NCBI GenBank assembly: GCA_026692725.1
Contig: JAPMUG010000003.1
Span: forward strand, 248,001-312,000
Source: Ecytonucleospora hepatopenaei
Lineage: Eukaryota > Microsporidia > Enterocytozoonidae
Length of the DNA stretch: 64,000 bases
Direction: 5' to 3'
Shown one piece after another: positions 23,053-34,983 of the stretch (the stretch's first letter is position 1; each line of letters begins with the position of its first letter). The notes below the pieces were generated by a model. That model saw only the letters and a list, made by a program, of their open reading frames with translations. It had not been told where the DNA came from and made no database searches. Both the position numbers and the translations under genes were made by a program.

Positions 23053-24241
23053 TTATTCATCATATTTTCTTTTTAAAGTTTTATTTAAATTATTTACACA
23101 CTTACTTGAAGTATTTGAGGTATTTGAAGCATTTGGGGTATTTGAAGGTTTCTCTAGGATTTTTTCATAAGCCCTTTTTATTGTTTTTTTATAATTCTTA
23201 CTTTCTTCTGGTTGAATGGAAATTTGTGGGTGCTTATGATGATCATAAAAATCTTGTAATGTTGTGCTTCCTATGTATTTTGCCTTAAACTTGGCTGTGT
23301 TTCCCCAAATTTCATAAATATGCTCTAAAACATCATTTTGTAGCTGATATTTTTGAAAAGGCAAATTATTTAAAACACATAATTGATTAAACGTAAAGTT
23401 TAGTGCTTTTCTTATTTTAGCAAATTCATTAATTCGTTTAAAATCCCGCGTAAATAAAAATTTTAGAGAATCAGGATATATTTTAAAATATGTCTCATAA
23501 TCATCAACCACCATAATTCCCTCCAAAAAATGCATCAAAAATCTATGCAAAAAATAGTCCATTAAGAAAATGTCTTGTTTTGCTTCTTATGGTATTTTAT
23601 GATAGTTTCTGCATATGGATGTGTGAAACCTATGTGCTATCAGTGTCATTTCTGTAATTGAGTGGATTACAATTGTTACATAAAATTCATTTTGAATTTG
23701 TTTATCCGCCTCATTTACATTCTTTAGACAATCTTTTGTAAACCTAATAATTTTATTATTACCAAAAATATAATCAAAATCTAAAAAAAATGTCTGTTTT
23801 TATATTTTTCAGATTATTTTCCTGTATAATTGAATTATTAGTAAATTTTATTAGATTTTTCATTTTATGATAAAAGGCATAGAATATAAGTCGTACACCA
23901 TTTGAAAAGTTTTCTCCATTAATACGTGTGTTGTTTTCATTTGAAAATATTTTACATACTTTTTGTTTTTTAAACTTACTATTTACGTTAGAATAAAAAC
24001 ACCTACTAAATTTATGTAAAAGAATATTTTTTATGTTTGTGCTCATATCAATAAAATGTGATTTAAAAGCAGTAAAATATTCATCTTCTGTAATTTCATT
24101 ATTTTTGTTTATATTTACATCTATACAATTATGTATATTAACATCTATACAATTGGGTTTATTTACATCTATACAATTAGGTATATTTGTGTTTGTAACT
24201 TCACATGATGGAATATTAGCACATAAAATAAAAAACATCAT
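23053..24241 (-). pseudogene. Broken paralogue of the neighbouring secreted protein (24430-25554)
   Basis: Three frame pieces in order match the intact neighbour along its length. The first (24241 down to about 23790) has a signal-like start and three NCIDVN repeats encoded by 24-bp tandem repeats. It ends where an A8 run on the plus strand (23783-23790) carries one base too many. Continuing in the next frame gives a segment with FYVTIVIHSITEM, matching VYLNLLVHCITEL of the neighbour. An in-frame TAA at 23587-23589 then interrupts, and the remaining 169 residues (start 23562) align with the neighbour's C-terminal half (MDYFLHRFLMHFLEG versus MEYFANCLLMHFIEG). Two independent lesions argue for a true pseudogene. 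Original function unknown. Confidence 0.75.
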
Positions 24242-24429: not shown

Positions 24430-25554
24430 TTATTCTGTATGTGACATTTCTTCCATTTTTGATTTTATTATAAAACATGAAATTAGTGAATTGGCTCTCT
24501 TAACTATATATTTGGTTCTTATCATTCCTTTGTATTCTAAAATATCATTTGCATCAATATTTATGCATGGATGTTTATGTTTTTTATAAAAATTGCTTAG
24601 GGTCGAAGCACTGATATCATACTTCTTTTTGGATGACATTCTGGTATATTCTTTGTAAATTAAGTCTAAATCCTCATTTTTCGACTGATATTCTTCAAAT
24701 GGTAAGTAATTTATCAATCCAAACAAGTCACCACTAAAATTGAAATAAGACTTTAACTTAGCAAATGCATTGCATCTTTTATAATTCTGTGTTAAAATAA
24801 TTCTAAATAAATAAGTGTGTTTTTCAAAAATCCTGTCAAAATCCATTAAAACCATAGTTCCCTCTATAAAATGCATTAAAAGGCAATTTGCAAAGTATTC
24901 CATGGTAAAAAGTTCTGATAAACTTTTTGTGTCCATAGAAATATAGTGACTAATGATAAATTCGTGTAAAAAATGGGAAGTGCATGATAATTCAGTTATG
25001 CAATGAACCAGTAGATTCAAATAAACCTCAAGTTTTTGACATTGTGTTTTTTTAATTAGGCTTTTAAAAAAATAAGAAGAAAATTTCATTCCACCCTTTC
25101 CTGAAAAAATCTCAGTAAAATCTACAGGTTTTTCTGTTTTTACCATTGAGAATTTTATATTTTCCAGTGTTTTAATGGTTTTTTTAATGCATGAACATGT
25201 CCATGTTCTGGCACCACATGCAAAAGTTTCTACATTGGGAGACTCCTCACTAAAATTATCAAAAAACCTTCTGTTTTTTTCTTTTTCTTCAAAAACTTTC
25301 ATTGTGTAATTAATTCCGTTTAAAAAATTACTTGTAAATTCGATAACATGACTTTTATTATTATCAAAAACATCTTTAATAACATCAAAATAGTTTTCAT
25401 CATTTAATGATGCACTTTTTTGATTATTTAAAATTTTGTTTGTATTTTCATTATATTGCATGGTATTCACTGTATTGCTTGTATTTTCACTGTGTAAATT
25501 GTTGAATTCTTGATTAGAAGCCTTTAAACTAAAAAAATATAAAAACATTAGCAT
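24430..25554 (-). CDS. Secreted protein of unknown function, intact copy of a tandem pair
   Basis: This 374-residue protein begins with a signal peptide (MLMFLYFFSLKAS). An Asn/Thr/Ser-rich linker (20-60) leads to a helical region with a Cys-rich patch (FACGARTWTCSCIKK, near 120-135) and a helical C-terminal domain containing MEYFANCLLMHFIEG, KKHKHPCINI and a basic end. I recognise no family. It is conserved with the broken gene just downstream (23053-24241), so the pair arose by tandem duplication. The shared KHKHP motif may be functionally important. The location suggests an exported or cell-surface role. Confidence 0.65.
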   Translation of the reverse strand: MLMFLYFFSLKASNQEFNNLHSENTSNTVNTMQYNENTNKILNNQKSASLNDENYFDVIKDVFDNNKSHVIEFTSNFLNGINYTMKVFEEKEKNRRFFDNFSEESPNVETFACGARTWTCSCIKKTIKTLENIKFSMVKTEKPVDFTEIFSGKGGMKFSSYFFKSLIKKTQCQKLEVYLNLLVHCITELSCTSHFLHEFIISHYISMDTKSLSELFTMEYFANCLLMHFIEGTMVLMDFDRIFEKHTYLFRIILTQNYKRCNAFAKLKSYFNFSGDLFGLINYLPFEEYQSKNEDLDLIYKEYTRMSSKKKYDISASTLSNFYKKHKHPCINIDANDILEYKGMIRTKYIVKRANSLISCFIIKSKMEEMSHTE

Positions 25555-25893
25555 ATTTTATAGAAGAATAAGGTTAAAATTTAAGATTTTTTTAATGAAT
25601 TTTAATTAAATTTTCAATTAATAATTGTTTGTTTTTTATTATCAGTTTTATGTAATAAAATTGCTATTTTTATAATTTCAGCATATTATAATTAAATTTA
25701 AAAACTTTTTATAATACCTTATTTAAATTTTAAAAAATATTTTATAAAATTTATTTTTATAATATGATAGGCATTAAAAACATTAAAAGCTATAAAAACA
25801 TTAGAAAGTATAGAAAAAGAAATAATAAAGAAAGCAATTTGATAGAAAATACAACTAAATTTTTATTAAGTATTCTTTTGTTTTTTGCACTTT

Positions 25894-25901
25894 TTATACC
25901 C
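25894..25901 (+). promoter_or_regulatory. TTATACCC start-proximal motif choosing the M16 start
   Basis: The CCC motif ends directly at the ATG at 25902, the arrangement seen at many genes here. It favours this start over the in-frame ATG at 25764, which would add 46 Lys/Asn/Ile-rich residues and a hydrophobic stretch. Confidence 0.55.
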
Positions 25902-28555
25902 ATGGAAGAAACATTAAAAAGAAAAAAAGAAGAAACTTTTATTTTAACAGGAGAAGCAGATGCAACTCAGTATAAACATTTTATTTTAGACAATGGTGTT
26001 AAGGTTGTTTTGGCATCTAACAAGGATTTTGACAAGGGTGCAATTGCTGTTTCTATGGGAATAGGTTCAATGGAAGATCCATGGGAAACAAATGGACTTT
26101 CTCATTTTTTGGAGCATATGCTTTTTATGGGAAGTGAAAAATATCCAAGTGAAAATGCTTTTATGGAATTTGTTGCTAAAAATGGGGGATATACAAATGC
26201 ATATACAGCAGGAGAATTAACATGCTATTACTGTGACGCAGAAAAGACAAAACTAAAGGAACTGGTTGATTTACTAAGTGGATTTTTTACATGTCCTTTG
26301 CTTAAAAAAGAAGGTGTTGAAAGAGAGTTAAATGCAGTAAATTCTGAGTATTTAATGCGTAAAACTTCTCAGGCATGTGTGGAATGGGAATGCTATAAGG
26401 AATTTATGAGAAACAATGTTTTAAACAAAAAATTTGGGTGTGGTAATTTGGAAACATTAAAAAAAGAAAATATACATGAGGAAGTTGTTAAGCACTACAA
26501 AAAATTTTATTCTTCTGATAAATGCTGTGTGGTAATTTGTGGGAACAATTCTTTAGAAGAACTTGAAGAAATGGCAGGTGTTTTTAAAAATGTTAAGAAA
26601 AATGAAGAAATGAAAAACTTTAAAAGAAATTCTCAGGTTGATATTTTTGAAGAAAAATATTTAAATAATTTTATAAAATCAGAGGCAATTAGTGAAAAAG
26701 AAGATCTGGTTATAAAAATTGCAATTGATTCTCATAAAAAATTATACAGGGAAAATGTTTTAGGTTTTTTGGGTCATATTTTTACTAATAAAGAAAAGGG
26801 AAATTTATTAAGCATTTTGCAAAATAAACAACTTGCTTTTAACTTGCACTTTGATCATGAAGATTTAGATGCGTGTACTTTGGTGATTATTAAGGTTCAA
26901 ATGATTTCACTAGATAAAAAAGATGAAGTAATTCAACTTATTTACGATTTTTTAAATAAAATTGAGGAAAAGGCAAGTGAAGAAGAGTATGAAAGAATTT
27001 CAAGTATACACAGGCATGAATTAAAATATGCTCCTAAATACAGTGCAATTGATTTGGCTGAAGAAATGTGCTCAAATTTACAAACATATGATTTTATGTA
27101 TTCTTTATATCCTAATTATGTTATGGAAAAATATGATAAAGAATTAATTAGTAAAACAATTAATGAACTTAAAAATTGGAAGAAATGGATGATATTTGGT
27201 TTTACACAAACTTTTACAGAAGAAGAGAAGAAGAATTTAAAGATTAGTAAGTTACATAAGGAACTCAAATATCTTGTAACAGGTGAAAAAATAAAAATAA
27301 ATGAAAACAAAGAAAAAACAGAAGAAGAAACATTTGTAAAAAACAGTATTCCAGGAATAAGCAGTGATAAAATTATTGAAGGAGTTGAACTAATTGAAAA
27401 TGACTTAGAAAGTTACGATTTTTCGTGGCAAGGTAAGCAAATCAAGAATGAGGGAAATATGTTTTTTGTATTTGACAAGGATTTTAAACAACCAAAGGGA
27501 ATAGTGAAAATTGTGCTTAAAAACACAGAACCTTCTTTTAAAATTTATTTGAATACCATGAAAAAATCATTTGAAGAAAAATATGCTAGAGAAATTGAAA
27601 ATAATTTTGTAAATGTTAGCAGCTGTTTTAATCCCTTTTCACTGTTATTACATTTGAAGGGTTTAACAAAAATATTTTAAAGTTTGTTGAATTATTTTTT
27701 AGAAATGATTACTTAAACAGCAATTTATTTGGAAATGAAATAACTAAAAGAAAGGTTGATTTAAAGAAGCATATAAATAGCAGTCCATTTAAATTTACGA
27801 TAGGAAGATTTAAAAAAATATTACATGGAAAATTATCCATTGAAGAAGAACTTAAAGTTGTAGAAAAACTTAAGGAAGTAGAACCTGTTGATTTTAAAAA
27901 CATAAGTTTTGATCTTTTAGTCACTGGTAATTTAAACTTAGAAGATGTAAGAAATTTAAAAGAAAATCTCTTACAACTTTTATGCAAACAAAAGGTAGTT
28001 TATGCAGAAAAAGAAAATTCTTTAAAAAATAAATTTACATTTAAAACGAATGATAAAGAAAACAATGTGCTTCATAGGTTTTATAAGATAAAAAAAGGAG
28101 AAGAACATTTAGCTGCACTTTATGAATTTTGTTGTAAAGAAACATTTTTTGACCAGTTAAGAACACAGGAGCAACTAGGATACGTTGTACAGGCATTTAA
28201 TGTCTATGATATGAAACAGATGTATGCAACATTTAGAGTTCAATCAGAAAAACATGTTGAATTTTTAAGAAAGAGATTTGATAAGTTTATGAAAGATTCT
28301 AAAGAGAAAATACAAACCATGGATAATGAAACGTTTGAAAATTACAAAAATGGTTTGTTATGCGCTTTGAGGGAAAAGAAAACAAATTTAAGCGGTGTTA
28401 GTTCTTTCAATTTATTTATTTATGAAACATATGGAGGGAATTTTGGAAAACATGAAGAAAAAATAAATGAAATTGAGAAAATAAATTTAGAAGAGTTGAA
28501 GAATTATGAACTAGCAAGCAATTTTAGTTATGAAATAGAATCAGAGAGATTTTAA
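25902..28555 (+). pseudogene. Insulysin-type M16 metalloprotease gene with a one-base frameshift
   Basis: M16A proteases (Ste23, Axl1, insulin-degrading enzyme) cleave peptides inside a closed two-half chamber. The zinc motif HFLEH and following MLFMGSEKYPSENAF are intact near bases 26100-26160, and the distal Glu lies in GVERELNAVNSEY. The first frame ends at 27678-27680 after LLLHLKGLTKIF. Reading in the next frame from about 27661 gives KGFNKNILKFVELFF and continues unbroken to 28555 through the family's FFDQLRTQEQLGYVV. So the gene lacks one T in the GGGTTTAAC run at 27659-27667. Everything else looks functional; either the break is recent or it is a sequencing error. An upstream ATG at 25764 would add a possible signal anchor. 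Confidence 0.85.
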
Positions 28556-28669: not shown

Positions 28670-29212
28670 ATGGAAACTGTTGAAGACACACAAAAAAATA
28701 ATAATGAAACTGATGAGTTTGAAGAATTAAACAAACGTGCAGTAGCACAAATTTCAGAATTTCAAAGAGAAGACACGAATCTGTGGCATTTTTTCTTTTA
28801 CAAAATAAAAAAGGGTGAAGAACATTGGTATTTACCACAGATAATTATGACGTATATCCTATGCCTTGGGTTTTTTTACCATGTAGGAGAAAGAGGATAT
28901 GAGTTGTGCTTAAAAGAGATTTTTATAGAAGACCAAATGTACATTTATGTAGCTATTGGAACATCAAAAAGTTACAGTGATATTTTAGAATTTAAAAATA
29001 GTTTTTATGAAGAAATTGGGAAAATGTTTGAGGACATGGATAAAAGAACTTTTGAAACCATGATTGACATATCTGTAAACACGTGTAGCAGGTGCATAGG
29101 AATCTATCAAAATTTTATTGGAAATTTCCATAAAGTAAGCTTAGAAAAAATAAAAACATGTCTTTTTATAGATGGTGACGTGTATTATCACTGTAAAACA
29201 GAGTTAAAATAA
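28670..29212 (+). CDS. Small M16-derived protein, copy 1
   Basis: This 180-residue protein has an N-terminal charged helix (FEELNKRAVAQISEF) and then LWHFFFYKIKKGEEHWYLPQ. The run YKIKKGEEH is identical to residues in the last domain of the upstream M16 protease (bases 28079-28105). Further on, EDQMYIYVAIGTSKSYSDIL and MFEDMDKRTFE line up with the protease's KQMYATFRVQSEKHVEFL and TMDNETFE. It has no zinc motif, so it cannot be a protease by itself. It is the first of three tandem relatives. A TTATCCC motif lies 13 bases before the ATG. It lacks a stretch near the C-terminus that copies 2 and 3 have. Confidence 0.7.
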   Translation: METVEDTQKNNNETDEFEELNKRAVAQISEFQREDTNLWHFFFYKIKKGEEHWYLPQIIMTYILCLGFFYHVGERGYELCLKEIFIEDQMYIYVAIGTSKSYSDILEFKNSFYEEIGKMFEDMDKRTFETMIDISVNTCSRCIGIYQNFIGNFHKVSLEKIKTCLFIDGDVYYHCKTELK

Positions 29213-29213
29213 A

Positions 29214-29223
29214 TTAAGCTTAA
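29214..29223. promoter_or_regulatory. TTAAGCTTAA palindrome after copy 1 stop
   Basis: The sequence AAATAAATTAAGCTTAAA overlaps the stop codon of copy 1 and occurs identically at the stop of copy 2 (palindrome at 30524-30533), with another palindrome 3' of copy 3 at 31366-31375. It marks the copied 3' end; a processing role is possible. Confidence 0.45.
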
Positions 29224-29228
29224 AAATA

Positions 29229-29781
29229 TTTTAACATTTTAAAATTTAAAGGCCAAAGGCCCCTTATACGGGCCTAAATTTTGCCCCTGACAAAATTTCG
29301 TTTTTTTACCCCAATTTTTGCATTTTTAAAAAATAAGAATCATGCGCTAAAAAATTAATCGATAACAATTGAACATTATACTAAATAAACACTAAACTTA
29401 AGATAAACTTATGTATTTAACCATAAAAAACTGGTTAATGCATACTTATATATGCAATAAACTTTTTTAAATACCCTGCTTTTCTTATTTTTTGTTTACA
29501 TTTGCAAACAAAAAACATAAACAAAATAAAAAATGACTTTTAAAAAAAGAATTTTTGCGTTTGAAAGAAAGATTTGATATAAAATACATATGTAATTTAA
29601 TAAAACATGAAATCTTTAGTTTTATACCTGCTATGGTTATTTTTTAAAAAATTTTTTAAAGAGCGTAGCGTGTTAACTTTTTTTAAAACCAAAAATTGGG
29701 GTAAAAAAACGAAATTTTGCCAGGGGCAAAATTTAGACCCGTATAAGGGGCCTTTGGCCTTTAAATTTTAAAATGTTAAAA
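29229..29781. mobile_element. MITE-like element, 92-bp terminal inverted repeats, TA flanks
   Basis: The left arm (29229-29320) and right arm (29690-29781) are reverse complements with two mismatches over 92 bp. They contain GGCCAAAGGCCCCTTATACG and a TTTTTTTACCCC tract. Both ends are bordered by TA (29227-29228 and 29782-29783), the target duplication expected for Tc1/mariner-type insertion. Pairing continues imperfectly into the interior (GCGCT/AGCGT words). The ~370-bp centre has no open frame, so this is non-autonomous. It sits between copies 1 and 2 of the M16-derived genes. Confidence 0.8.
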
Positions 29782-29913
29782 TACACTTCTTGAATAATTT
29801 ATTGTACTTAAAAATATTAAAAAACATTAATTAATTTAAAAATCATTTTGCTATCAAATAAATCAATTATCAAATATAAAAAAATCAATAAAATGATTTC
29901 CCCTATAATGTTT

Positions 29914-30522
29914 ATGGAACATAATCCTTATTTTCAAAAAAGATGTAATGAAAATAAAGAACTTCAAGAATTGAACAAATTAGCGGAAGAAGAATTAGAA
30001 TGTTTTGAAATGGAAGGGTTAAAGTTATGGCACTTTTGGTTTTATAAAGTAAACAAAGGAGTAGAAGAATGGTATTTACCACAGACTGGATTAATAGGAA
30101 TTTTTAAACATAATTTCAACAAAATGTATAATAAAGAAGGGTTTGATATTTTAGCAGGGGAAGTATTTATTAAAGAACAAATGTATGTTTACATTTCCAT
30201 AGGTACTACAAAGAGTGAGGAAGAACTTTTGGATTTTAAAAATGAATTGTTTAAAGATCTATCTGATTTTTTTGAAAAGTTAGGTGAAGAATCTTATAAT
30301 AAAATAATAGAAATTTATGTTGAAAACCTTAAATTAGAAGAAAAAATTAAAAAACCAAACAATTCAGTATTAAATCGAATTTATAGCAATCTTAATGAGA
30401 AAGACGACGAAAAGCATGCGGCATTTATAAAAAAACTTTCTAAGGTAAGTAAAAAACCACTAAATACATGCAAATTTTTTGAAGGTGGTGTGTTTTATGC
30501 AATGAAATTTGAAATAAAATAA
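29914..30522 (+). CDS. Small M16-derived protein, copy 2
   Basis: The product has 202 residues from the ATG followed by GAA, matching the ATGGAA starts of copies 1 and 3; in-frame ATGs at 29893 and 29908 are alternatives, and TTTCCCCTATAATG lies just upstream. It carries LKLWHFWFYKVNKGVEEWYLPQ, then KEQMYVYISIGTTKSEEELL, then a C-terminal block ending NTCKFFEGGVFYAMKFEIK shared with copy 3. No protease zinc motif is present. Function unknown; descent from the M16 C-terminal domain is inferred from the shared W/FYK-KKG and QMY...GT.KS patterns. Confidence 0.7.
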   Translation: MEHNPYFQKRCNENKELQELNKLAEEELECFEMEGLKLWHFWFYKVNKGVEEWYLPQTGLIGIFKHNFNKMYNKEGFDILAGEVFIKEQMYVYISIGTTKSEEELLDFKNELFKDLSDFFEKLGEESYNKIIEIYVENLKLEEKIKKPNNSVLNRIYSNLNEKDDEKHAAFIKKLSKVSKKPLNTCKFFEGGVFYAMKFEIK

Positions 30523-30691
30523 ATTAAGCTTAAATTTAAAAGCATTTGTTGGGTTTATATTTTGATTTCTTAATATTCATATAAATTATATATTAAAAAA
30601 TATTTTATTTAATAAATCAACATTAATAAAAGGATTTAAATTTAGACGATTATTTATAAATCAAGAATATTTTATTTCTCCTTATTTTCAT

Positions 30692-31309
30692 ATGGAAAAT
30701 ACTGATCCATCACATAAAAACATAAATAAAAATCACCATGAAGTTGTAGAGTTTCAAGAATTAAGAACGATGGCAGAAAAAAGTGTTAATTTCTTTTTAA
30801 TGAAAGATTTAACACTTTGGCACGTTTTCTTCTATAAAGTAAAAAAGGGAGAAGAACATTGGTATGTAACACAAGTGCAACTAGTATATTCTCTAGAACG
30901 TCTTTTAAAACAACCTTACATAAATATAGGCTTTGAAAAAGTCTTGAGATACTTTTTTACAGAAGGACAAATGTATATTTATTTTTCTATTGGAACAATA
31001 AAAAGTGAAAAGGCTTTGTTGGAGTGTAAAGAGAATATACTACTAAATCTGAGAAAATATTTTGAATTTTTAATTAAGCATGGAATTGATGGAGAAGTAA
31101 AGCATTTTGTTAAAGAATTAAAAACAAAAAATAAAATAGATTTTAGAGGATCTTTTACCAATAACATTTATATAGAACTGTGTCAGCGAGATGAGAAAAG
31201 GTATGAGAAATTTATAGAAAATCTTTCTAAGGTAAACATTAAGCTTACAAATACATGTTTGTTTTTTGAAACTATACCATACTATTCTTTAAAAATGGAA
31301 TATAAATAA
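30692..31309 (+). CDS. Small M16-derived protein, copy 3
   Basis: This 205-residue protein repeats the family layout: an N-terminal charged helix (FQELRTMAEKSVNFF), LWHVFFYKVKKGEEHWYVTQ, EGQMYIYFSIGTIKSEKALL, and a C-terminal block (ENLSKVNIKLTNTCLFFET) shared with copy 2. The frame is intact. No signal peptide or TM segment is visible, so a soluble protein is likely. It might bind peptides or partner with a protease, but nothing in the sequence proves that. Confidence 0.7.
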   Translation: MENTDPSHKNINKNHHEVVEFQELRTMAEKSVNFFLMKDLTLWHVFFYKVKKGEEHWYVTQVQLVYSLERLLKQPYINIGFEKVLRYFFTEGQMYIYFSIGTIKSEKALLECKENILLNLRKYFEFLIKHGIDGEVKHFVKELKTKNKIDFRGSFTNNIYIELCQRDEKRYEKFIENLSKVNIKLTNTCLFFETIPYYSLKMEYK

Positions 31310-31402: not shown

Positions 31403-31660
31403 TTACACTGAATCAACTTTACATACGTCCATTCCTGGTAAATATTTATCCTTCTTTTCCATAATCTTAGCAATGTGATTTCCTTGTAAAAGTATATTCC
31501 CTTGCTCATCGATGTTACCGCCGCAACCGAACTGTTTTTTAAGTTTCTTTAAAATTTCATCCTTTTTTTCTTGCTCCAAATTTGAAATTACAGTGTGTGG
31601 GTTATTTTTTATTTTCTTAAAATATATCTTTACAACACTTCCCTCCGTATCAATTTTCAT
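31403..31660 (-). CDS. SUI1: Translation initiation factor eIF1 (SUI1)
   Basis: eIF1 binds the 40S subunit near the P site and guards start-codon selection. The 85-residue protein is short for the family (about 108) because the flexible N-terminal tail is reduced. The core LKKLKKQFGCGGNIDEQG followed by ILLQGNHIAKIMEKK matches the SUI1 fold. The coding strand has TTACCCCCGAATTTTAATG at the start, which fixes it. The variant GCGGNI replaces the more usual ACNGTV. Confidence 0.88.
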   Translation of the reverse strand: MKIDTEGSVVKIYFKKIKNNPHTVISNLEQEKKDEILKKLKKQFGCGGNIDEQGNILLQGNHIAKIMEKKDKYLPGMDVCKVDSV

Positions 31661-31820: not shown

Positions 31821-32477
31821 ATGCCTGTAAGTCTAACAACAGCTGAAAAAATACTTGGTCCACTTCTTTCTTTAGTACCTATGCTTTTAGGTAAAAATGC
31901 ATTTTATATGAAACCAGAGTATACTAATCTGATTAGAATGCTTTTTGTTTTCTCGATTGTTTTTCAACTTTTATGCTACCAAATTATAAAGTCTAAGATT
32001 ATTAAGGTTAATAATCAGACTAGATTTAAGAATAAGGTACAGGGACAGATGGAAGAGGAAGAAGTTGAAATTAGTGTCTATGATTATGACATGGGAGAGT
32101 GTAAGGCAGCAATGAAAAAAGTTGTTTTTGATGCTGCTATTGCAATTGTGGTGCACTGGAAATTTAAATCTATCCAAATGATGTTTGGTAATGTTCTTGG
32201 TTTGATTAAACCACTTTTGTTTTCTGGTCTTTTTAGAGAGTACATTTATGGACAAAAGTTACAGAGGCCTTGGGATAAAAATTACATTTATGGCTCTTAT
32301 ACAGTAGAAAATGTAAAAGAAGAGGAAAAGTCAAAGGTAAAAGAAGTAGAAGAAATTGTTGAGGAAGAAGAAACTTCTAAGGTCGAAAAAAATGAAAAAA
32401 AGACAGAAAAAAATGTAGGGAAAAAAGAAGAAGAGAAGAATGAGAAAAAGAAAAACCAAAAATTAAAAGAAGACTGA
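31821..32477 (+). CDS. PHO88: Pho88/Snd3-like ER membrane protein
   Basis: Pho88/Snd3 is an abundant ER protein that takes part in SRP-independent targeting of membrane proteins. The 218-residue product has two hydrophobic segments (about 9-24 and 36-56) and the family's central EISVYDYDMGECKAAMKK element, then a moderately hydrophobic QMMFGNVLGLIKPLLF segment and a RPWDKN motif. The last ~50 residues are Glu/Lys-rich, also typical. No other family fits the order of these elements. Confidence 0.78.
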   Translation: MPVSLTTAEKILGPLLSLVPMLLGKNAFYMKPEYTNLIRMLFVFSIVFQLLCYQIIKSKIIKVNNQTRFKNKVQGQMEEEEVEISVYDYDMGECKAAMKKVVFDAAIAIVVHWKFKSIQMMFGNVLGLIKPLLFSGLFREYIYGQKLQRPWDKNYIYGSYTVENVKEEEKSKVKEVEEIVEEEETSKVEKNEKKTEKNVGKKEEEKNEKKKNQKLKED

Positions 32478-32574: not shown

Positions 32575-33006
32575 TTAATTTATTTCATGCCTAATTATTT
32601 CTAAAAGATATTTTGGTATATGTTTGTGTTTTAACAGTTCTTCCTTTGTTTTAAAAATTATTTTACGCTTAGTTTTTTCATCAAAATCTGTCTTGATTTT
32701 TTTAACTTTCATTTTAAACAGGGACAAATGTTCAACGGTTTTGTCTTTTTTAACTCTTTCTATTTCTATTTTATTCCCAAATATTTCGCCTATACAACCG
32801 CACTCTTCTTCGGTTTCCCGTACTGCTGCTTCCTTTGCGCTTTCATTTTTCTTAATGTGTCCTTTTGGAAAAATTACATTACCTTTTGAAGAAGTGATCA
32901 TCACTATTTTGTTTTCATAAAAAGGTATGCATCCTGCTGTTTTTTCAATTTCTTTTTCAATTTTATTAGAAAAAACATGCATTAAAAAAGAAAGGAAATG
33001 AAACAT
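32575..33006 (-). CDS. Nudix hydrolase, diphosphoinositol-polyphosphate phosphohydrolase-like
   Basis: Nudix enzymes hydrolyse nucleoside diphosphates linked to other groups. The full Nudix box is present: GHIKKNESAKEAAVRETEEE followed by CG, fitting G-x5-E-x7-R-E-x2-E-E-x-G with hydrophobic spacing. PKG before the box and the small size (143 residues) resemble the Ddp1/Aps1 class. The start is set at the first ATG (33006); a second at 32982 is possible, and the longer frame upstream would begin at TTG and is rejected. The exact substrate cannot be told. Confidence 0.85.
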   Translation of the reverse strand: MFHFLSFLMHVFSNKIEKEIEKTAGCIPFYENKIVMITSSKGNVIFPKGHIKKNESAKEAAVRETEEECGCIGEIFGNKIEIERVKKDKTVEHLSLFKMKVKKIKTDFDEKTKRKIIFKTKEELLKHKHIPKYLLEIIRHEIN

Positions 33007-33174: not shown

Positions 33175-34983
33175 TTATTCAAACTGCTCAATCAAACTTT
33201 TTTCTTCATCCGTAAATTTAGTAAATATTGGAACTACTTCTGATTTAATTTCTAATTTACTGTTTTTTATAAGATCTTCAAATGTTTTTGGGAATGTTTT
33301 GTGCAAATCAACAATCTTTGAAAGTTTTTCTGTTGATGAAGGAACAAAAGGTTCCATTGTTTGTCCAAGAAGTAAAATTAAATTAAACGCAACGGAAAAT
33401 CCACTGACCATGTTTTCTTTGTCCTGTTGAAGATTTTGTAAAAACCTATTTCCCACTGAACTCAATTCCAAAACCTTGTTAAGTCCTTCACGAAGGTGAA
33501 TGGCATTCATTTCCTGTTTGTATTCAATAAAAAGGTTTTCTACTCTTTTATAAAATTGATCTACTTTTTCTTTAAACTCCCCTGTGATATTTTTTTGCTC
33601 TTCTGAAATATTAACCTTTCTTTTTTCCAAGAATTTTAAGGTTCTGTTAATAAAATTTCCTAGATTTGAAATTAATTCTGAATCAACCAACTGTAAGAAT
33701 TCTTTTGTTGAAAAATCTGTGTCTTTTACCTCCGGTCTTCTCTTTAGAAGGTAAAACCTCCACTTTGAACAGTCTCCCATTGTATTTTCAATCAAATCCA
33801 GTCCAAAAATTCCAATTTTCTTAGACTTGGAAAATTTCCTTTTGTTATAGGTCAAGTACTCGGTCGAACTAATAACCGTTCTGTGATCCAAATCAAAATT
33901 CTTATTAATTTCATAATCACCAAATCCATTTGACTTTATTTCACCTATAAGACTTTTGTTTCCAGATAAGCTTAATTCTTCTAGTTTTTCAATAATTTCT
34001 CTCTGTTTTGGATTCTTCAACTTTTTAAGCTTATTTTCCTTCAGTGCATACAAAATGGAAGGAAAAGTTATTGAATGAAATGGCACATTGTCTTTTCCCA
34101 TAAATTGCACCCAGTCTGCCCCGTCCAAAAATTCTTCCACCTTTTTGTAATTTCCTAAGTATTGCATTAAAAATGTTAAATACCCTATAGGAGCGTCAAA
34201 CCACACATAAAAAACCAAATCGTCATAATCCTTAAGAGGAACCGGAACACCCCAATTATACTTAAGCTTACGTGTAAAACACCTTGGTTCTATATCCATG
34301 TTTAACCAATTCTTGTAAATATCCTTTGCATTTTCAGACCATCCATCTGTGTTTATATTTTCAACGTATTTCCTTAGCAAATCCAATCGTACAAATAAAT
34401 GTTTTACTTTTCGCAGCTCTGGTGTGTTTCTGCACAACTTGCATTCAACATTTTTAAGTTCTTCAGGCTCAAAAGTATTGCCGCAATCATCACACTGGTC
34501 ACCATTTGCCTGTGCTCCACATTTGCATGTTCCCTCCACGTATCTGTCTGCAAGATACTGCTCACATTTTGTACAGTAAAACATTTTTATTTCCCTTTCT
34601 TCAAAATAATCAATTGTTTTTAAGAAAATTTCCTGTGTCAGTTTAATGTGCTGATCACAGTGCGTGTTTCCCCAAAAATCAAAATTTATGTCAAACCAGT
34701 CATACACCTTTTTATGCTTAACTCTGTTTTCAGCAGCAATTTCTTCCGGCTTCCTTTTTTGCTTCATCGCCTCCATTTCCAAGGCCGTTCCAAACTCGTC
34801 TGTTCCACAAATGAAATTAAGGTCATACCCCATTCTCTTTCCAAATCTTGCGTAAACATCAGCACTTAGAAGTGATCCAATGATATTTCCTAGGTGTGGA
34901 TGGTTATTTACGTATGGCAATGCACTCGTTACAAAAATCTTTTTTGCTTTATTTTCTTTTATATTGCATGTTTCTTCTTTCAT
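33175..34983 (-). CDS. MES1: Methionyl-tRNA synthetase
   Basis: The enzyme charges tRNA-Met with methionine in the cytosol. The 602-residue class I synthetase has the HIGH-type motif PYVNNHPHLGNIIG, a zinc-knuckle region with four CxxC pairs (FYCTKCEQY, GTCKCGAQ, DQCDDCGN, ECKLCRN), FYVWFDAPIGY, and the KMSKS-type KFSKSKKIG. Between TFPSILYALKENK and the TEYLTYNKRKFSKSK region there is an added ~50-residue Lys/Glu-rich insert. The anticodon-binding helical domain follows. The start is the ATG directly after TTTTTTGCCC; a TTG two codons earlier is not used. No extra C-terminal tRNA-binding domain is seen. Confidence 0.95.
   Translation of the reverse strand: MKEETCNIKENKAKKIFVTSALPYVNNHPHLGNIIGSLLSADVYARFGKRMGYDLNFICGTDEFGTALEMEAMKQKRKPEEIAAENRVKHKKVYDWFDINFDFWGNTHCDQHIKLTQEIFLKTIDYFEEREIKMFYCTKCEQYLADRYVEGTCKCGAQANGDQCDDCGNTFEPEELKNVECKLCRNTPELRKVKHLFVRLDLLRKYVENINTDGWSENAKDIYKNWLNMDIEPRCFTRKLKYNWGVPVPLKDYDDLVFYVWFDAPIGYLTFLMQYLGNYKKVEEFLDGADWVQFMGKDNVPFHSITFPSILYALKENKLKKLKNPKQREIIEKLEELSLSGNKSLIGEIKSNGFGDYEINKNFDLDHRTVISSTEYLTYNKRKFSKSKKIGIFGLDLIENTMGDCSKWRFYLLKRRPEVKDTDFSTKEFLQLVDSELISNLGNFINRTLKFLEKRKVNISEEQKNITGEFKEKVDQFYKRVENLFIEYKQEMNAIHLREGLNKVLELSSVGNRFLQNLQQDKENMVSGFSVAFNLILLLGQTMEPFVPSSTEKLSKIVDLHKTFPKTFEDLIKNSKLEIKSEVVPIFTKFTDEEKSLIEQFE

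Follow-up and report, generated by a model that had tools for sequence, protein, structure and literature searches.

What is the source of a gene family without known relatives, of which microsporidian genomes hold many? This question is raised by a stretch of the genome of the shrimp-infecting microsporidian Ecytonucleospora hepatopenaei (the window: 64,000 nucleotides, positions 248,001 to 312,000 of contig JAPMUG010000003.1), where three small genes stand in tandem on the forward strand behind a gene for an insulysin-type M16 protease. Here the orphan family can be traced to a parent domain that adjoins it, and the birth of a lineage-specific family may be read in place. The three genes are very probably descendants of the second half of the last domain (D4) of an M16A protease, most likely that of the upstream neighbour. 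An earlier note on this locus had proposed domain capture followed by local multiplication, and both parts held up: the capture is supported by the profile comparison, its domain specificity and the position of the genes, and every gene found in the genome with copy 3 as query sits at this locus.

The three open reading frames (ORFs) are intact, as the earlier note had claimed, and their products are 38, 39 and 39% identical in pairwise comparisons. For the analysis they were joined by P0002, a 131-residue protein found on short contigs of another source, giving a family of four members. Conservation is strongest in the two strand blocks, LWH-FFYK-KKGEEHWY and QMY-Y-IGT-KS, which were found as described, with copy 2 carrying KVNKGVEEWY instead of KKGEEHWY. 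The genome search with copy 3 (3.09 Mb in 13 contigs, the window lying on contig C7; best candidates scored) returned these three genes alone, in four stretches. No Pfam match above the cut-off was obtained for any of the three copies, and NCBIfam, a library for bacteria and archaea, gave none for the four members. Two database searches with the family, which can detect only relatives that have 5-residue words in common with it, revealed no relative beyond P0002 and the proteins of the window.

The origin from D4 is supported by hhalign comparison of the family alignment with 110 aligned full-length M16 proteins. Columns 45-186 of the family match residues 771-912 of P0003, the PtrA protein of E. 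hepatopenaei, with a score of 45.7, a probability of 78% and 135 columns in register; another run gave 45.4 and 77%. This alignment is better than chance, since none of 1000 column shuffles reached the real score (maximum 28.5, mean 15.8); the reversed family scored 16.7. The match to the M16 C-terminal domain put forward earlier is thereby narrowed to the second half of that domain. The likeness persisted (score 36.8; 0 of 1000 shuffles, maximum 32.9) with a template reduced to 100 rows by dropping P0003, P0005, P0008, P0011 and P0019, which we take to be microsporidian proteins, and five further close relatives, although microsporidian rows may remain in it. Excision of the KKGEEHWY block still left a score of 40.6. 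Taken singly, each copy gives a weak match to the same part of D4 (P 0.0008-0.0022). Among 67 ORFs of the window the three rank third to fifth behind two pieces of the M16 gene itself, the weakest copy scoring 30.2 and the next ORF 26.3.

The likeness is specific to one domain of the four. D4 scored 44.5, clearly above chance, while the other three domains gave 10.7, 13.3 and 16.3 (3 of 200 shuffles reached the score of D3, which lies slightly above most of them); an origin from D1, D2 or D3 was therefore rejected. D2 of the enzymes scored only 18.8 against D4, so that the family is far nearer to D4 than D2 is, which argues for descent from D4 and not for a general likeness of fold. When the D4 piece was compared with the whole genome (two candidates scored), copy 1 (E 0.039) was the sole match at E<=1 other than the piece itself. 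A hidden Markov model (HMM) of the family placed P0003 narrowly at the top of 120 M16 proteins (12.9 bits, followed by 12.0 and 11.9), and its match fell within the last 22% of the length in 74 of 105 matching full-length proteins; with the reversed family the figure was 27 of 92. The YKIKKGEEH run that the earlier note had found identical in copy 1 and the last M16 domain extends to 10 residues, FYKIKKGEEH, and the later blocks are collinear in the alignments. Recent gene conversion of this block is not favoured, given that 4 of its 10 codons (counted by eye) differ synonymously.

Other comparisons did not bring out the M16 likeness. No M16 family appears among the Pfam matches of any of the three copies at E<=10, genome searches with PF22456 and PF05193 do not match the copies, and searches of PDB sequences with one copy or with the family profile gave no M16 protein. 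A profile to which D4 of the window itself had been added (A2) reached insulin-degrading enzyme (IDE) at E 0.42 at best, and this match is circular. The AlphaFold2 (AF2) model made from the family without M16 rows is poor (pLDDT 43), and in the best 50 rows each of Foldseek and VIA it retrieved ferredoxin-like and other chains and no M16 protease. We disregarded one Foldseek row, “De novo designed M16 protein fold”, as “M16” may be only a design name. The missing Pfam match and the ferredoxin-like neighbours of this model would suit an unrelated, lineage-specific ferredoxin-like family, its M16 likeness being due to chance or to a common lysine/glutamate-rich run. We consider this improbable in view of the shuffles, the reversal, the 100-row template, the block excision and the D4 specificity, and also because the ferredoxin-like model is itself low in confidence. 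Still less probable is that the genes are decaying, functionless remnants left when the protease gene was duplicated in part. Such decay would agree with their position directly behind the presumed parent, their divergence and the repeat element between copies 1 and 2; it is opposed by the three intact frames, by inter-copy ratios of nonsynonymous to synonymous substitution (dN/dS) of 0.43-0.57 at dS 1.0-1.3 (own NG86 script), by P0002, which keeps the same blocks in another source, and by the CCC-like start signals of all three copies.

These signals consist of a CCC-like triplet ending exactly 10 nt before an ATG in each copy: CCC before 28670, CCCC before 29914 and CTCC, degenerate by one base, before 30692. 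A motif of this kind shortly before the start is given as typical for microsporidian genes in PMC2803860. Of the 51 non-overlapping ORFs in the window that reach 120 aa, 16 have CCC within 30 nt before the first ATG; for intergenic ATGs the count is 24 of 381. Because the signal has the same spacing in all copies, copy 2 probably starts at ATG 29914 rather than at 29893; ATG 29908 is a possible alternative.

Identity to P0002 helps to date the multiplication. P0002 shares 60% identity with copy 3 and 40-43% with copies 1 and 2; since the former value exceeds the identity among the copies, they probably separated before the P0002 lineage split off, at least copy 3 having been retained since. 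We suggest that a segment from the second half of D4 was copied and acquired a new 5' sequence of about 42 codons, and that the extended segment then would have turned into a gene of its own, which multiplied locally.

The products may represent half a domain with a new N-terminal part. In a second AF2 model, built with M16 rows, a strand (the FFYK-KKGEEH region), a helix, a hairpin and further helices are predicted, corresponding to the topology of an M16 half-domain, and the second strand of the putative hairpin (QMY-Y-SIGT-KS) aligns to QMYATFRVQSEK of the protease. The global alignment behind this model misplaces approximately the first 20 query residues, making that part unreliable; an earlier alignment (A3), worse at the N-terminus, was not used for folding. 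The M16 fold assumed previously is predicted for half a domain only, and by the model that uses M16 rows, not by the one that omits them. The first ~42 residues give no M16 match above noise, and their derivation from the first D4 helix found no support (score 15.7). Of the “new N-terminal helix” of the earlier note, the extension without M16 likeness is found, while its helical state comes from the poor family-only model. A hydrophobic N-terminal segment is absent from all four members: within the first 40 residues, Kyte-Doolittle means over 19 residues nowhere exceed 0.26.

The lack of a zinc site in all copies, noted before, is real (HXXEH is absent from 4 of 4 family members) but says little, since in the enzymes this motif is located in D1 and D4 never had it. 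The informative loss is the arginine of the arginine/tyrosine (R/Y) pair, by which D4 completes the M16 active site, as stated in PMC12731061. The pair is invariant in 36 aligned M16 rows (R800 and Y807 of P0003), whereas the family (alignment A2) has Y, Y, V and Y at the Arg position and, at the Tyr position, F in all but one member, which has Y. The R/Y loop is also two residues shorter in the alignment. Because of this shortening and the loss of Arg, the small proteins are not likely to take the place of D4 in catalysis.

Compared with D4 of M16A insulysin or IDE (PF22456, PF05193), the family thus agrees in register and, in the AF2 model built with these M16 rows, in predicted half-domain topology, and differs in being stand-alone, in its unrecognisable first half of D4, in the lost Arg and in the new N-terminus. 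Alpha-MPP (a subunit of the mitochondrial processing peptidase, MPP) and the core proteins of complex III are likewise described in PMC11266112 and PMC12731061 as M16-derived, non-catalytic and lacking the R/Y pair; MPP subunits, however, have about 500 residues and are paired with an active sister subunit, while the small family would amount to half a domain. By analogy only, the family recalls the propeptide-like cysteine protease inhibitors of family I29 (CTLA-2, crammer, BCPI), in which, according to PMC4089206, a piece of a protease became a small free protein; they concern an unrelated protease class and their inhibition has been reported, whereas any inhibition by the small family would be putative.

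We regard the favoured explanation as a whole, origin and function together, as probable. As to function itself, it is tentatively suggested that the products are intracellular, non-catalytic half-domains that bind a protein or peptide and may modulate the neighbouring protease, the most plausible partner, through its domain interfaces or substrates; this partner is suggested by descent and position alone. More doubtful still is the general scheme in which, in the reduced genome of a parasite, the non-catalytic end of a single M16 protease would have turned into tandem free half-domain proteins regulating the protease or competing for its substrates. If the products do regulate it, they would represent pseudo-protease regulators built from half a domain; among the matches listed, the literature on M16 does not describe such a route to protease regulators. 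Nor did the listed titles and abstract starts contain such a small-protein family, and no paper was returned with both “hepatopenaei” and “insulinase”.

Two alternatives accept the D4 origin and differ in the role of the proteins. Comparable in doubt to the general scheme above is free-peptide binding by strand addition at an exposed sheet edge, by which the proteins would serve as carriers or chaperones with no link to the protease. This agrees with the concentration of conservation in the two strand blocks and with substrate binding by IDE via strand addition, as reported in PMC12731061, although any ligand or binding site would be putative. Action on the host outside the parasite cell appears unlikely: that a parasite has a fast-changing tandem family confined to its lineage might suggest it, but none of the four members has a hydrophobic N-terminal segment, and housekeeping genes follow just downstream, though some upstream ORFs have no Pfam family. 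CCC directly precedes ATG 25902 of the M16 gene, and for this reason the true start is probably there, leaving the first 46 annotated residues, with their hydrophobic stretch, untranslated; with this start, protease and small proteins alike would lack an export signal.

The M16 gene is the sole one found in the genome, including searches with three M16 Pfam families. Its first piece is 98% identical to P0003, the best named relative, and both the zinc motif HFLEH and the R/Y pair are present. In the window its frame is interrupted near 27.6 kb (about 27600-27700), while the database protein P0003 is intact with 930 aa; the interruption may be either real or an assembly error.

Coordinates of the small genes, the M16 gene and their surroundings (window positions)
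Feature	Position	Strand	Remarks
Small gene copy 1	28670..29212	+	180 aa
FYKIKKGEEH block of copy 1	28796..28825	+	same protein sequence as D4 block
Small gene copy 2	29914..30522	+	202 aa from ATG 29914; ORF open from ATG 29893 (209 aa)
Small gene copy 3	30692..31309	+	205 aa; nearest relative P0002
M16 first piece	25764..27680	+	D1 with HFLEH (26103-26117), D2, start of middle domain; PF00675 5.5e-34, PF05193 1.4e-15, PF16187 4.2e-08
M16 last piece, other frame	28001..28555	+	D4; PF22456 9.1e-21; R 28160-28162, Y 28181-28183; FYKIKKGEEH 28079-28108
557-bp element	29227..29783	+	between copies 1 and 2; inverted ends of 106 nt (94% complementary); TA at both ends
SUI1	31403-31660		housekeeping neighbour
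Pho88	31821-32477		housekeeping neighbour
NUDIX	32575-33006		housekeeping neighbour
Methionyl-tRNA synthetase	33175-34983		housekeeping neighbour
ORF	23774-24241	-	155 aa
ORF	24430-25554	-	374 aa

Upstream of the M16 gene lie two ORFs with no Pfam match above the cut-off; close to its start the shorter contains tandem repeats of 24 bp (NCIDVN units), and the N-terminus of the longer is hydrophobic by eye. The 557-bp element resembles a non-autonomous DNA transposon, and related pieces occur on contigs C1, C5, C7 and C8.
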